Virus record (IMG/VR): IMGVR_UViG_3300007623_000037 | Coordinates: 1 to 22,146 of that record | Length of the DNA: 22,146 nucleotides | Direction: 5' to 3' (one strand) | DNA from: a virus | Shown: positions 1,257 to 22,146 of the stretch, in pieces | Layout of the letters: each line of letters starts with the position of its first letter | Numbering within the stretch: position 1 is the first letter of the stretch | Made by a program: the position numbers and the translations under genes | The notes under the pieces: model-generated | The model's database searches: none | What the model saw: only the letters and a program-made list of their open reading frames with translations | Told to the model about the DNA's origin: nothing

Positions 1257-1574
1257 ATGAATAGCAAAATCGACTCATTTAAAACATTTTTAGAATCAAT
1301 GGATGTAAATGAAATGAGACTAAACAAATATATGAATGATTTAGATGGTAATTTGTTTAAATACACTCATAAAAAAATTATTTTACCAGATTATAATAAA
1401 ATTAAAAAAATGACAGGCGCAAAAGAACAAGAACTAGACGGTTCAGATGACGAAGGTCTTGTTTCTGCACTTATTGTTAATAAAAAACATATATTGACAT
1501 ATGATGAATTTGAAGGTTTAATTTATAGTAATTATCAATTAAAAGATTTATTAAAAGGTAATATTAATAATTAA
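1257..1574 (+). CDS. Unknown late protein with helical N-terminus (105 aa)
   Basis: One of only three plus-strand gene starts in the window. AAAGGAA precedes the ATG, and a TATAAATA element lies 22 bases upstream, which marks it as a late gene. The 105-residue product is acidic/lysine-rich. Its N-terminus MNSKIDSFKTFLESMDV vaguely resembles the capsid-targeting helix of T4 internal head proteins (pattern ...FxxFLxE/S), but this is weak. No domain is recognised. The gene converges on the C-terminal uvsW piece and their 3' ends overlap by 11 bases. A role in the virion is possible given late expression, but not shown. Confidence 0.7.
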   Translation: MNSKIDSFKTFLESMDVNEMRLNKYMNDLDGNLFKYTHKKIILPDYNKIKKMTGAKEQELDGSDDEGLVSALIVNKKHILTYDEFEGLIYSNYQLKDLLKGNINN

Positions 1575-1896
1575 TTTCACTTAATGGATATTCTATTTCT
1601 GATATAGGAAATTCTTCAGGATTATATGAAGTACTTTTTCTATGTTCATATTGTTTATAGAATATCCCACCAGGTTTACGAACACCAAAGTCATCAACTA
1701 AATCATACACAACAAATTCGGATTTAGTTTCATGTAATCTCATACCTCTACCAATACTTTGTGTAACTGTAGTATATGCTTTTAATGGCGAACTCAATAC
1801 CATGTTATGCAATTTTTTAATGTTTACACCAGTTGATAAAAGTTGATACCCTGATACTAATATTTGATTTTGTTTTTCAATCTTTTTTATTTTCAT
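1564..1896 (-). CDS. uvsW: UvsW-like helicase, C-terminal fragment (110 aa)
   Basis: This is the C-terminal end of a T4 UvsW-type superfamily 2 helicase, the enzyme that unwinds R-loops and branched DNA and moves T4 from origin- to recombination-dependent replication. It carries motif V (STGVNIKKLHNMVL), motif VI (QSIGRGMRLH) and a following YDLVDDFG, matching T4 UvsW in order and spacing. The ATG at 1896 is preferred over the one at 1932 because AAAGGAA lies ten bases before it and the homology starts a few residues later (EKQNQILVSGYQ). The start lies inside the 3' end of the endonuclease gene (20-base overlap), so translation is probably coupled. It lacks motifs I-III and cannot act without the other fragment (2668-4041). 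Confidence 0.85.
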   Translation of the reverse strand: MKIKKIEKQNQILVSGYQLLSTGVNIKKLHNMVLSSPLKAYTTVTQSIGRGMRLHETKSEFVVYDLVDDFGVRKPGGIFYKQYEHRKSTSYNPEEFPISEIEYPLSEINY

Positions 1897-2554
1897 AATA
1901 TTCCTTTGCATATTTGGATGTTGTGCCAACATATTTTATATTTTTAAATTCATAGAATAGTTCTTTTGGTATTCGTTTCATAATCTTTTCTTCTAAATCA
2001 AAACACGTAATTGTATTCTTACTTTTTAATCCTTGCTTTTGCTTTGCTTCATCAGAATGTGTTTTACCATACATCCCATTCTTTATACCGACAGAACCCT
2101 TTTTCTTATTGATTTCATCTGAATATTTTCTACCCTTTGATTCTGCAATTAAACCTCTTTCTTTTGCTTCTTGAACATCTATTTTAATCTTATCACCATT
2201 TTCATCTATATAAACAGCTTTGTCTTTAGAATATTTACCTACTTTTCTTCTGAAGTCGTCAGTCACATTTGGACCAACCCCGTCTAATCCATTTTCTTCT
2301 ATTAGATTAGCCCAATTATCTGATTCAACAATATTGTTTTCTCTTGAAAAATTTATTGCAGTGATTATAAGTTCTTCGCATTCATCTTCAAACTCAGCTA
2401 AAATTTCGGTAGATATATCATTACCATATTTCTTTAAGTGATTTCTCCAATATGTACCAGAACCATAATAACCATAAGGATCGTCTTGTTTAGTTTTACC
2501 GAAATATTTTAATCCGGTTTGATTATGGGTTTTTATATAAAGTTTTATAGACAT
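1877..2554 (-). CDS. GIY-YIG homing endonuclease with NUMOD3-like repeats
   Basis: A 225-residue homing endonuclease. The GIY-YIG core is at residues 1-45: 'LYIKTHNQTGLKYFGKTK' supplies the two motif strands, followed by YYGSGTYWRNHLKKYG, typical of phage Seg/Mob-type members. Residues about 140-185 carry NUMOD3-like DNA-binding motifs (GRKYSDE and NGMYGKTHSDEAKQK). The start has GGAG eight bases upstream. The gene sits exactly between the two parts of uvsW and its tail overlaps the start of the C-terminal piece, so it appears to be the invader that split the helicase gene. A late promoter (2688) and a strong hairpin (2593-2642) lie upstream, suggesting late expression. It looks full length. 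Confidence 0.9.
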   Translation of the reverse strand: MSIKLYIKTHNQTGLKYFGKTKQDDPYGYYGSGTYWRNHLKKYGNDISTEILAEFEDECEELIITAINFSRENNIVESDNWANLIEENGLDGVGPNVTDDFRRKVGKYSKDKAVYIDENGDKIKIDVQEAKERGLIAESKGRKYSDEINKKKGSVGIKNGMYGKTHSDEAKQKQGLKSKNTITCFDLEEKIMKRIPKELFYEFKNIKYVGTTSKYAKEYYENKKD

Positions 2555-2592
2555 TTTTATACTCCTATTTTTGATTAATCATAAGAGTGCAG

Positions 2593-2642
2593 TTGGCGGA
2601 CTGCATTTAATAAATTGCCAATCATCTCTTTAAGTCCGCCAA
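2593..2642 (-). promoter_or_regulatory. 10-bp inverted repeat / structured RNA upstream of the endonuclease
   Basis: TTGGCGGACT at 2593-2602 pairs perfectly with AGTCCGCCAA at 2633-2642, with a 30-base loop. A competing hairpin (GCAGT 2589-2593 with ACTGC 2600-2604) shares one arm, and AAGAG copies at 2583 and 2641 can pair with CTCTT at 2626. The G+C-rich stems stand out in this AT-rich genome. The element lies between the late promoter (2688) and the endonuclease start (2554). It has no U-tract, so it is not a simple terminator; a regulatory or intron-like RNA is possible. Confidence 0.6.
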
Positions 2643-2667
2643 GAGTAAAGAAACAAAAGACAATTTA

Positions 2668-4041
2668 CTAAATACCTCTTATATAATTATTTATATATTT
2701 TTCATCAATATCATCATCTTCAGTCAAATCTTTTGCTAACTTTAGTGTTCCGTCTTTCAATTTAACATCATCATTACTATGCAGATGAATTATAGTATTA
2801 TCTTCAAGGGTTATTTCAAAAAAATCTTCTTCGAGAATTTTTCTAGTTTTTTCCCTGGTCTTAGCATCATCACTTCCAGCAATGTAATAAATGCCATATT
2901 TCTTTTGAAATTCAAAACTATGTTTACCTGTTATCTGTTTTTGTTCTATATCAACACCCGGATGTAATTTTTCCATAATACCAAGATACATGGTTTGTAA
3001 ATGATCTATATGTTGCCCAAGAACTAACGTATTACCTTTTGCTCTTAATTTACATGTAAGATTAACAATAAAATCATTTCTTTGTTCATGTTCTTTTAAA
3101 AATTTTAATTGTTTTGCATATAATTTACCAGATTCTTTAAATAAATTTTTATCATTTTTTGAATATTTAAATATTATACTATTAATTTTGATAGGAGTGG
3201 CAAGTCCTCTTTCTATTAAACCAGCACTAGTTATATATGTTTTAGGTAAACCAAATAATCCGAATAATTCCATTTTCATAATTGGATCTTCTGGTAATGT
3301 ACCGGTAAAACCCCATTTAAATTTACAATTTAATGTACTTTTAACAATAGCAGCAGTTTCATTACTAGCGAATCTATGTGCTTCATCAGTTATAACGTAA
3401 TCTAACTTATCAAGTTCATCATGCCAATTTTGCATTGATTGCCAAGTTGATATAGTAAGTGAATTATTGAAATGCCTATCATTATTACCACCACCGATAA
3501 CATGAGTATCATCATAAAGGTCCATAAGATTATAATCCCTAATATCAGATTTAAACTGTGTAAGTAGGTTAATATTTGGAACAAGTAAAAGTCCTTTTTT
3601 ATTTTGTCTTCTCATAAATTCGGCTATTAATGAGATTGTCATTGATTTACCAGAACCTGTACACATCTTATTAATTTGTTTTACATTTAATATTGATTCT
3701 TTAAATGCAATTTCTTGAAAATCATAAGGTGGAAATGGTAAAATTTTTTTAACATCATCTAAATAATTATTAATATCATCAATAGTATAATCAGATTCAA
3801 GTTTCTCTTGTTCTACACCGAATGATTTTAATAATTGTAAATGACCATTCATAACCACTAACATTTTATTTTGAATATTCCCGAAATATTCGTACGGCGA
3901 TTTATAACCAGCTTTAACAGCTGGTTCAAAATATGCGCCTGGTCTTTCTACTTTCAAATATTCAAATAAATTTTTAATAGTTGTATTATCGGATTCTATA
4001 ACAGAAAACGATTCATTTAATTTATTTACAGTTATACTCAT
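2668..4041 (-). CDS. uvsW: UvsW-like helicase, N-terminal fragment with foreign Hint-like tail (457 aa)
   Basis: This is the N-terminal part of a UvsW-type SF2 helicase. Walker A is CTGSGKS (residues 127-133), the DEAH box is YVITDEAHRF (219-222) and motif III is GFTGT (244-248). The second RecA-like domain then runs through 'YYIAGSDDAKTREKTRKILEED' (about 385-406). Homology stops there, just before motif V. Residues 407-457 are unrelated and read like an intein/Hint block B region (EITLEDNTIIHL, then KDGTLKLAKDLTEDDDI), then a stop. The ATG at 4041 is chosen because UvsW homology begins there and the upstream TTG start lacks support. The stop of a 20-codon leader ORF overlaps this ATG (ATGA). 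Function needs assembly with the 1564-1896 product, or repair of the split. Confidence 0.87.
   Translation of the reverse strand: MSITVNKLNESFSVIESDNTTIKNLFEYLKVERPGAYFEPAVKAGYKSPYEYFGNIQNKMLVVMNGHLQLLKSFGVEQEKLESDYTIDDINNYLDDVKKILPFPPYDFQEIAFKESILNVKQINKMCTGSGKSMTISLIAEFMRRQNKKGLLLVPNINLLTQFKSDIRDYNLMDLYDDTHVIGGGNNDRHFNNSLTISTWQSMQNWHDELDKLDYVITDEAHRFASNETAAIVKSTLNCKFKWGFTGTLPEDPIMKMELFGLFGLPKTYITSAGLIERGLATPIKINSIIFKYSKNDKNLFKESGKLYAKQLKFLKEHEQRNDFIVNLTCKLRAKGNTLVLGQHIDHLQTMYLGIMEKLHPGVDIEQKQITGKHSFEFQKKYGIYYIAGSDDAKTREKTRKILEEDFFEITLEDNTIIHLHSNDDVKLKDGTLKLAKDLTEDDDIDEKYINNYIRGI
2688..2695 (-). promoter_or_regulatory. Candidate late promoter for the homing endonuclease
   Basis: The minus strand reads TATAAATA here, inside the last codons of the uvsW N-terminal fragment and about 135 bases before the endonuclease ATG. 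T4 intron-encoded and free-standing endonucleases are often driven from internal late promoters, which this arrangement resembles. Confidence 0.45.
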
Positions 4042-9132: not shown

Positions 9133-9252
9133 ATGTATAAAAATGTAAAACAGGGTTGGTATAATCTATTAAATGCTGCAAAATTTCAAAAACTAATAGA
9201 CGAGCACATGAAATCATTTAAAGATGGTAAATTGCTTCTTTTCTTATATTAA
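9133..9252 (+). pseudogene. 5' stub of an older gene 4 (head-completion nuclease)
   Basis: ATG at 9133 opens a 39-codon frame whose first 29 residues (MYKNVKQGWYNLLNAAKF..., then LIDEHMKSF) line up without gaps with the first 29 of the intact gp4 at 9495 (MYANAKKGLYKVINKNKV..., then PIDNHMQSF); I count 15 identities. After KDGK (about 9231) the frame enters the reverse complement of the endonuclease remnant and stops at 9250. It keeps a late promoter (9121-9128). It is a truncated leftover of a second, diverged gene 4, not a functional protein. Confidence 0.75.
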
Positions 9253-9442
9253 AAATCTTAATAATCTTATATTTGTAATTAAGCGGATTATCTTTCTGAT
9301 CCTGAATAAAATCTTTATCATTTGAACTACTAAAATATTTTATTCCTAAATCTAATTTAGGTTTAATGGATGACGTTCTTGTCCCATAATAATATAATTT
9401 ATCTTTAATATTTGTAATTCTATATACATAATGATATTTCAA
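9218..9442 (-). pseudogene. Truncated GIY-YIG homing endonuclease
   Basis: From a TTG at 9442 (GGGG nine bases upstream) the frame gives 74 residues: KYHYVYRITNIKDKLYYYG, containing the two GIY-YIG strands, then TRTS, 'LDLGIKYFSSSNDKDFIQ', NPLNYKYKIIKIF and RKEAI. This matches the N-terminal catalytic half of a phage GIY-YIG family. It ends abruptly at EAIYHL, where the sequence becomes the gene 4 stub; the rest of the catalytic domain, including the usual downstream Glu region, and the DNA-binding half are absent. The longer upstream open frame is the antisense of gp4. A TATAAATA (minus 9479-9472) lies 30 bases before the TTG. Confidence 0.75.
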
Positions 9443-9455
9443 AACAACATCCCCA

Positions 9456-9463
9456 TATAAATA
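9456..9463 (+). promoter_or_regulatory. gp4: Late promoter of intact gene 4
   Basis: TATAAATA on the plus strand, 31 bases before the TTG at 9495. Reading the plus strand I found this 8-mer only here, at 1227 and at 9121, in each case just ahead of a plus-strand start. Confidence 0.65.
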
Positions 9464-9471
9464 TTTTATAT

Positions 9472-9479
9472 TATTTATA
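9472..9479 (-). promoter_or_regulatory. Late promoter of the truncated endonuclease
   Basis: Minus-strand TATAAATA, 30 bases upstream of the TTG at 9442. It overlaps the leader of gene 4 on the other strand, so the two transcription units face each other with crossed promoters. Confidence 0.45.
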
Positions 9480-9494
9480 ATTTGGAGTAAAATA

Positions 9495-9974
9495 TTGTAC
9501 GCTAATGCAAAAAAAGGTTTATATAAAGTAATCAATAAAAATAAAGTAAAAAAACCAATAGATAACCATATGCAATCATTTATAATTGAAAATAATAATG
9601 TTTTTTTAGAGTATAAAAGTTCATTAGAATTAAAAGCAATAAGATATTGTGATTTCAACAAGTATATAACTTCGTTTGCATTAGAACCATTTGCAATAAA
9701 ATATATTAAACCAACGGACGGAAAATATCATAGATATTATATAGATTTGTTTATTGAATTTGTGACTGGCGAAAAATTTTTAGTAGAGATTAAAAGTAAA
9801 GGTGAAACAATAAGACCAAAAAAGCCTAAGAAAAATACTGAAAAGGCTAAGTTAAATTATGAAAAGTCTTTACAGACATATATAATTAACCAAGCTAAAT
9901 GGAAGGCCGCTAAAGAGTTTGCAAAATCAAATGATTTAAAATTTATTATATTGACTGAAGACGAATTAAAATAA
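9495..9974 (+). CDS. gp4: Head-completion nuclease, T4 gp4 (gp50) homologue
   Basis: A 159-residue protein of the T4 gp4 family, which acts after DNA packaging to complete the filled head before neck attachment; the fold is a TnsA-like PD-(D/E)xK nuclease. Visible matches: EYKSSLELKAIRYCDFN (T4 YRSSWEHRFFKWCD), DGKYHRYYIDLFIEF (D and HRYxxD), the active-site strand FLVEIKSKGE (ExK), RPKKPKK, QAKWKAAKEFAKSNDLKF and the ending ILTEDEL. The start is a TTG with GGAG seven bases upstream; no in-frame ATG fits. It converges on gp14, with one base between the stop codons. A diverged 5' copy of this gene survives at 9133-9252, suggesting that this one replaced it. Confidence 0.9.
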   Translation: MYANAKKGLYKVINKNKVKKPIDNHMQSFIIENNNVFLEYKSSLELKAIRYCDFNKYITSFALEPFAIKYIKPTDGKYHRYYIDLFIEFVTGEKFLVEIKSKGETIRPKKPKKNTEKAKLNYEKSLQTYIINQAKWKAAKEFAKSNDLKFIILTEDELK

Positions 9975-21414: not shown

Positions 21415-22146
21415 TTATTCAAATATATATACTGAACCTGCATCACCGATTCCATTTGGATCTTCCTGAGGTGCGCCAACTATAATTTTAGATTCATTAC
21501 ATGCTACTGAAAAACCAAAATAATCATATGATGCAGCATCAGAAGCAACAATTTTAATCTCATTGGTTCCATCTAAATCATATACATATACTGAACCTGC
21601 ATTAGCAAGGCCATTTGGATCTTCATAAGGTGCACCAACTATAATTTTAGATTGATTACATGCGACTGATACACCAAAATAATCATCTGCTGCAGCATCA
21701 GAAGCAACAATTTTAATCTCATTAGTTCCATCTAAATCATATACATATACTGAACCTGCATCGCCGATTCCATTTGGATCTTCATTATATGCCCCAACTA
21801 TAATTTTAGATTCATTACATGCTACTGAATAACCAAATCTATCACTTCCATCAGCATCAGAAGCAACTATTTTAATCTCATTGGTTCCATCTAAATCATA
21901 TACATATACTGAACCTGCCCCGGCGATTCCATCTGGGTCTTCATTATATGCACCAACTATAATTTTAGATTCATTACATGCTACTGAATAACCAAAATAA
22001 TCACTAACCGCAGCATCAGAAGCACGAATTTTAATCTCATTAGTTCCATCCAAATCATAAACATATACTGAACCTGCAGCACCGATTCCATTTGGGTCTT
22101 CATAATATGCACCAACTATAATTTTAGATTCATTACATGCTACTGA
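21415..22146 (-). CDS. FG-GAP beta-propeller repeat protein, N-terminus beyond window
   Basis: The frame is open to the right edge, so the start is outside; 243 residues are visible. They consist of about 4.5 copies of a 53-residue repeat: DLDGTNEIKIVASDA, DYFGxSVACNESKIIVGA, EDPNGIGDAGSVYVY. This is the FG-GAP_2 form of the integrin-alpha beta-propeller blade (FG..., VGA..., AGSVYVY). The DxDG loop could bind calcium. The protein ends shortly after the last blade (SVYIFE). Such repeats in a phage suggest an adhesin or receptor-binding structural protein. Its late timing is inferred from the neighbouring terminator and late unit only. Confidence 0.85.
   Translation of the reverse strand, partial: SVACNESKIIVGAYYEDPNGIGAAGSVYVYDLDGTNEIKIRASDAAVSDYFGYSVACNESKIIVGAYNEDPDGIAGAGSVYVYDLDGTNEIKIVASDADGSDRFGYSVACNESKIIVGAYNEDPNGIGDAGSVYVYDLDGTNEIKIVASDAAADDYFGVSVACNQSKIIVGAPYEDPNGLANAGSVYVYDLDGTNEIKIVASDAASYDYFGFSVACNESKIIVGAPQEDPNGIGDAGSVYIFE
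21423..22146 (-). repeat. 159-bp tandem repeats encoding FG-GAP blades
   Basis: About 4.5 head-to-tail copies, period 159 bases, with long identical blocks (for example around TAATCTCATTGGTTCCATCT, at about 21555, 21714, 21873 and 22032). Differences cluster at two places per unit: before FG (residues about 16-19) and after VGA (about 37-47). Confidence 0.9.

Follow-up and report, generated by a model that had tools for sequence, protein, structure and literature searches.

What is the short peptide that ends the N-terminal fragment of a phage helicase split by a homing endonuclease gene, and does it do anything for the divided protein? The question is raised by the uvsW locus of IMG/VR virus record IMGVR_UViG_3300007623_000037, of which positions 1 to 22,146 (22,146 nucleotides) were analysed as a whole and are referred to here as the window. 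Our preferred reading, to which we give a probability of roughly 60%, is that the peptide is part of a splicing-dead half-intein that serves as a non-covalent staple for the two halves of UvsW.

Architecture of the split uvsW gene

On the minus strand of the window, uvsW consists of two ORFs with a homing endonuclease ORF between them (1564-4041). The N-terminal fragment, UvsW-N (2668-4041, minus strand, ATG at 4041, 457 aa), is about 70% identical up to residue 404 to the uninterrupted UvsW found in Vibrio phages, phiKT1024 among them. Its helicase homology ends at about residue 405 and is directly followed by an acidic tail of 51 residues (residues 407-457, FFEITLEDNTIIHLHSNDDVKLKDGTLKLAKDLTEDDDIDEKYINNYIRGI; 2671-2823, minus strand, charge -7). 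The endonuclease ORF (1877-2554, minus strand, 225 aa) matches a PHROG homing endonuclease family (E 1.8e-9), is GIY-YIG-like by eye and contains a NUMOD3-like motif. The C-terminal helicase fragment, UvsW-C (1564-1896, minus strand, 110 aa), has a start that overlaps the end of the endonuclease ORF and begins with a basic head of 10 residues, MKIKKIEKQN (1867-1896, minus strand, charge +3), after which the helicase sequence directly resumes (QILVSGYQLLSTGVN). The insertion site corresponds to the loop just before helicase motif V, where about 30 uninterrupted relatives have a loop of about 5 residues (for example TRQVLE-GHNDA-ILIANY), and the tail is missing in every uninterrupted UvsW relative examined save one. 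The host halves are under purifying selection, with dN/dS of about 0.04-0.19 where measurable; in this respect the locus resembles genes-in-pieces, in which the host gene is split by an endonuclease gene and both halves are intact and selected.

The intercistronic leader of the endonuclease gene (2555-2667, minus strand) is strongly structured (folding z -4.2), and a hairpin at 2561-2588 (minus strand) would cover the ribosome-binding site of this gene. The leader in the environmental phage L041 (3400-3512) is likewise structured (z -3.8), with a hairpin that would lie over the ribosome-binding site and differs in sequence from that of the window. The presence of such hairpins with different sequences suggests translational control of the endonuclease in both elements.

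Recurrence of the tail in UvsW and NrdA

When related tails were compared by tblastn with 2.3 Gb of phage DNA, the significant matches were to this tail, again located at the C-terminus of split UvsW-N genes (with the L175 tail as query, Dickeya phages at E 3e-4; with the Vibrio tail, Dickeya at E 9e-5). The tail is thus no chance sequence, which bears out the first-pass annotation in placing a distinct unit, residues 407-457, directly after the helicase homology. Tail-bearing UvsW genes are present in the window, in the environmental phages L007, L041 and L175, in Dickeya phages (L002) and in Vibrio phages (L001, L015, L014). In the Dickeya limestoneviruses the tail on the split UvsW-N is accompanied by an endonuclease different from that of the window, L175 has yet another endonuclease family, and the Vibrio Ackermannviridae 144E46.1 and K476 have no endonuclease, the split, tail and head being kept with ORFs that overlap at ATGA. 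Several phage lineages therefore carry, at one UvsW site, an acidic tail and a basic head around different endonucleases. In Vibrio phages 1.244.A (L014) and 1.255.O, tail and head are fused in a single ORF as an insert of about 50 residues. A tail in an uninterrupted UvsW had been named beforehand as a result that would count against an intein origin, and formally it does occur once, in 1.244.A; however, tail and head form there an in-frame internal insert that is best read as a re-fusion.

Among 65 loci with the L175-type endonuclease the tail was found only at L186, which shares its contig with L175. The window endonuclease has relatives too, most of them located at other sites without a tail. 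No tail was found in bacterial genomes and plasmids, where the matches were ordinary NrdA sequence, and matches in a Sulfolobus virus and a Streptomyces phage were discarded as chance. As a side observation, a Vibrio phage SRILMA gene annotated as 'head-tail adaptor' (L040, 4001-4516) resembles the window endonuclease (38.6%), and this annotation is probably wrong.

The same module of tail, endonuclease and head is also present in an unrelated gene, NrdA (L087/L086/L251 and L252-L256). The split point lies between DDEGE and the segment ISLCTLGS (intact NrdA: EDEEGRIALCTLGS), and the split gene shows in order the tail EFKLTLDNGQEITLPGQHKVLLSNGEKKKVRELNEEDDIADLLS, the endonuclease and the head MKIIKKVCTRKV. 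An apparent NrdA coverage of phages P-SSM7 and S-PM2 up to residue 504 was rejected as a gapped-alignment artefact.

The tail as the second lobe of an intein N-half

The tail is very probably homologous to the second lobe (N2) of the N-half of a split intein, without the lobe that bears the nucleophile. In particular, a profile of nine tails had its best PDB match in a DnaE intein (E 0.0018), with most top matches being inteins aligned over the same block-B region, and the NrdA tail matched positions 51-93 of the 155-position profile of the Pfam family Intein_splicing (PF14890; E 0.0012). HHalign comparison of the tails with an N-intein profile from phage proteins gave a probability of 97% over 40 columns, which covered only the second half of the N-inteins. 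A tail HMM also recovers the true split intein of Salmonella phage S16, with a match ending at the end of IntN, its E-value of 3.6e-8 being flattering because the S16 locus itself came from the tail search. A profile of four tails (A6) gave no intein match in the PDB. The window tail alone gave no Hint match in Pfam, PHROGs or NCBIfam; a single divergent sequence carries too little signal, and scores are reached solely with the profile and with the NrdA version.

The predicted structure points in the same direction. The AlphaFold2 model of the tail alone (pLDDT 86) has its best Foldseek match in the Npu DnaE IntN (probability 0.99, TM 0.68, E 0.16), Foldseek E-values remaining above 0.1 because the model is small. 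With VIA, the same IntN was superposed at residues 53-98 with Z 5.5 and 2.1 A over 45 residues, and every VIA row listed for the tail model was an intein or a Hint domain. When the full UvsW-N is modelled, the tail forms an ordered beta meander with pLDDT of about 61-85. Sequence and predicted structure agree on the Hint fold in the form of a single N2 lobe, so that the earlier suggestion of an intein-like block-B region is upheld by the tail profile, the Pfam match of the NrdA version, HHalign and the predicted fold. The first intein block and its nucleophile are, as the first-pass annotation had stated, missing: the tail starts at about IntN residue 53, at the position of the N2 lobe, it has no block A with Cys/Ser at intein position 1, and neither HHalign nor structure comparison found a counterpart of block A in any family member. 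The histidine of the block B motif TxxH is also absent from the window tail, which has SNDD there, and is present solely in the NrdA tails (GQHKV).

The head and the missing splicing residues

The absence of a C-terminal intein half before the C-extein, as originally described, has to be corrected, since UvsW-C carries an intein-like head. MKIKKIEKQN resembles the first strand of a C-intein, and a putative homology is based on where the head lies, its charge and a short motif within about 10 residues. The true phage C-inteins identified in the analysis start with MRLKSIKEIKK (S16, PM2) or MKVTKIEPVE (Campylobacter phage WX1), and among the heads of the family the patterns MKIKKIExxN, MKPTKxxxK and MKIIKKVC occur. 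Neither UvsW-C nor the relatives read contain blocks F and G (terminal His-Asn, followed by C/S/T at +1). With the block A nucleophile and blocks F and G gone, the splicing residues are missing on both sides, and therefore no splicing is expected.

In each of the eight split cases that were compared, tail and head have opposed charges (tails -3 to -9, heads +2 to +5), although the elements that share this pattern are related and do not represent independent cases. Because the same pattern would turn up in about 10% of tail/head pairs taken from other window genes, charge is weak evidence on its own.

Mobility and selection

Along UvsW-N, L007 mostly shows about 83-100% identity per 60-base interval to the intact L011, which comes from the same metagenome, with about 45 bases upstream and about 30 bases downstream of the insert diverged. 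Similarly, in Dickeya phage PP35 the flank ATYGTFSTGIS replaces the ASYGTMQQGVS of the intact L022 (93% identical). Replaced flanks are what co-conversion during homing would leave. Between L087 and L252 the NrdA tails show a dS of 0.75, whereas the flanking NrdA is saturated at silent sites. These comparisons of flanking sequence indicate that tail, endonuclease and head travel as one unit, in line with the earlier proposal that the tail was brought by the endonuclease element.

Most tail pairs are under purifying selection. The NrdA tails have a dN/dS of 0.13 (p 5.5e-5), a Vibrio tail pair without endonuclease has pN 0.22 versus pS 0.85 (p 4e-10), and the tail pair of the window and L041 is also constrained (p 0.03), while selection was not significant for the pair of the window and L007 (p 0.06). 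Within the window group, the tails of UvsW pairs change faster than the helicase, with dN/dS of 0.35-0.53. Of the earlier description of the tail as the remnant of a split intein, the intein ancestry is thus retained, and the word remnant says too little, as the tail module is mostly selected and outlasts the endonuclease.

A proposed staple for the helicase halves

The concept of fractured genes, in which a split intein has a nested endonuclease, was reportedly put forward by Dassa et al. in 2009. Split inteins cut at the endonuclease position begin their association by electrostatic capture between a disordered anionic N2 lobe and a cationic C-intein (PMC11923092, PMC11766414). The locus is read as a homing element inserted in uvsW, in which UvsW-N bears a half-intein tail, an endonuclease gene follows and UvsW-C starts with what would be the opening strand of a C-intein. 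Its ancestor was most likely a split intein with an endonuclease, in the fractured-gene architecture, from which, if we infer the direction of change correctly, the catalytic parts were lost, on one side N1 together with its block A and Cys/Ser1, on the other blocks F and G. UvsW would then be made as two separate polypeptides, whose acidic tail and basic head may pair as in the capture step that opens split-intein assembly and thereby complete one Hint lobe. Such a staple would hold the halves together at the tolerant loop before motif V and presumably allow their reassembly into an active helicase. Selection and persistence without the endonuclease argue for the staple more strongly than charge does, and joining two halves is a likelier job for the tail than keeping the fragment stable, as had been considered earlier. 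The chances seem even that this represents a separate strategy of mobile elements, in which a two-part staple made of a single intein lobe re-joins the host protein with neither RNA nor protein splicing. It is much less likely, and indeed improbable, that the single lobe descended from the postulated half-Hint ancestor of the intein fold and is not a reduced intein.

A rather doubtful alternative is that tail and head are a passive scar, decaying left-overs of a split intein that are tolerated while the UvsW halves associate via their own interface. The fast evolution of the window-group tails relative to the helicase would fit such a scar, as would NrdA of Aeromonas phage Aeh1, which reassembles though its tails are unrelated; on the other hand, the low dN/dS of the NrdA tail, the constraint on the Vibrio tail despite endonuclease loss, the insert retained in the fused 1.244.A form and a tail/head charge pattern that is the same everywhere are difficult to reconcile with mere decay. 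That the tail serves the endonuclease and not the helicase, for instance as a conserved target, a regulatory sequence or a means of translation control, is very unlikely: the tail travels with the endonuclease cassette and has a structured leader after it, but the excess of synonymous changes reveals constraint at the protein level, and tail and head are retained by Vibrio phages that have no endonuclease, while in other phages they accompany unrelated endonucleases. Even less credit can be given to a self-splicing intron, by which the insert would be removed from the RNA. Endonucleases are common in introns and the LIMEstone uvsW insert (I-LimI) has been annotated as one (PMC3296691); against this, the window has no Rfam match at the gathering threshold, the conserved tail and head are protein-coding, the one with a stop and the other with a start of its own, and the Vibrio forms show a mere ATGA overlap. 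Frameshifting or ribosome bypass could yield one continuous protein with tail and head internal as in 1.244.A, and the Vibrio ATGA overlaps would permit coupling or slippage, yet this is highly improbable for the window and its relatives, where an entire endonuclease gene with its own ribosome-binding site separates the UvsW halves. Finally, a natural UvsW insertion domain unrelated to inteins, at which endonucleases happen to insert, would account for the internal insert of the uninterrupted 1.244.A UvsW and deserves hardly any weight, being already contradicted by the identical type of module in NrdA, besides the intein matches and the lack of an insert in the other uninterrupted UvsW examined.

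Relation to known systems

The staple reading places the locus beside the split inteins in UvsW of S16 and PM2, which have the same order of N-half with IntN piece, endonuclease gene, and IntC piece with C-half, and with which the window shares a tail homologous to the IntN end and the polarity of an acidic IntN end and a basic IntC start. Unlike them, the window has no block A Cys/Ser and no blocks F and G, and its insertion lies before motif V and not at motif II. We regard the locus as a new variant between split inteins and genes-in-pieces and not as an intein, because the defining catalytic features were looked for and are absent.

Endonuclease-split genes whose pieces reassemble include Aeh1 NrdA, gene 43 and the T4 topoisomerase (PMC2988022). 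In Aeh1, an important gene is likewise split by an endonuclease gene (NrdA-A/NrdA-B with mobE), the halves are made separately and the split falls in the same NrdA region; by contrast, the tail profile does not recognise its tail and head (L331, 990-4129) as intein-like, and their charges are the other way round (tail +6, head -10), possibly representing an independent charged clamp of opposite polarity. The I-LimI element of Dickeya phage LIMEstone is of the same type and at the same UvsW site as the window element (L002, L021), and the UvsW-N tail of this published intron (PMC3296691) belongs to the half-intein family. The open-licence literature yielded no paper with both 'UvsW' and 'split intein'.

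A review devoted to mobile elements of T4 calls the assembly of endonuclease-split phage enzymes an open structure-function question (PMC2988022). If tail and head are a staple, this question can be tested directly, in enzymes as unrelated as UvsW and NrdA, by means of two short and well-defined peptides. They would also provide a naturally occurring Hint domain of a single lobe, of interest for the proposal that half-domain duplication gave rise to the Hint fold (PMC7664689), as well as a natural tag for fragment assembly without splicing and a way for a selfish endonuclease to occupy an important gene without splicing.

Additional observations

Several other phage loci carry apparently complete inteins. 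UvsW of Salmonella phage S16 (L121, 1646-4372) and Proteus phage PM2 (L122, 1646-4378) has a split intein at motif II with an endonuclease between its parts, which are annotated merely as helicase pieces and a hypothetical protein. In Campylobacter phages WX1 and CPt10 (L124 and L128, 1223-4198) a PhoH-like ATPase is split by an apparently complete split intein with endonuclease, the CPt10 gene being annotated as a pseudogene, and the helicase of Lactobacillus phage Lbab1 (L016, 1496-4309) has an apparent full LAGLIDADG intein near motif II. Elsewhere in the window, an ORF at 9218-9661 (minus strand) includes a terminal fragment (HYVYRITN...) that shares 56% identity with the beginning of the L175 endonuclease and looks like a decayed second homing endonuclease, antisense to the ORF at 9495-9974. 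The minus strand at 21415-22146 encodes tandem repeats, each of about 52 residues (VYDLDGTNEIKI...SVACNESKIIVGA) and by eye FG-GAP-like, which continue past the window end.
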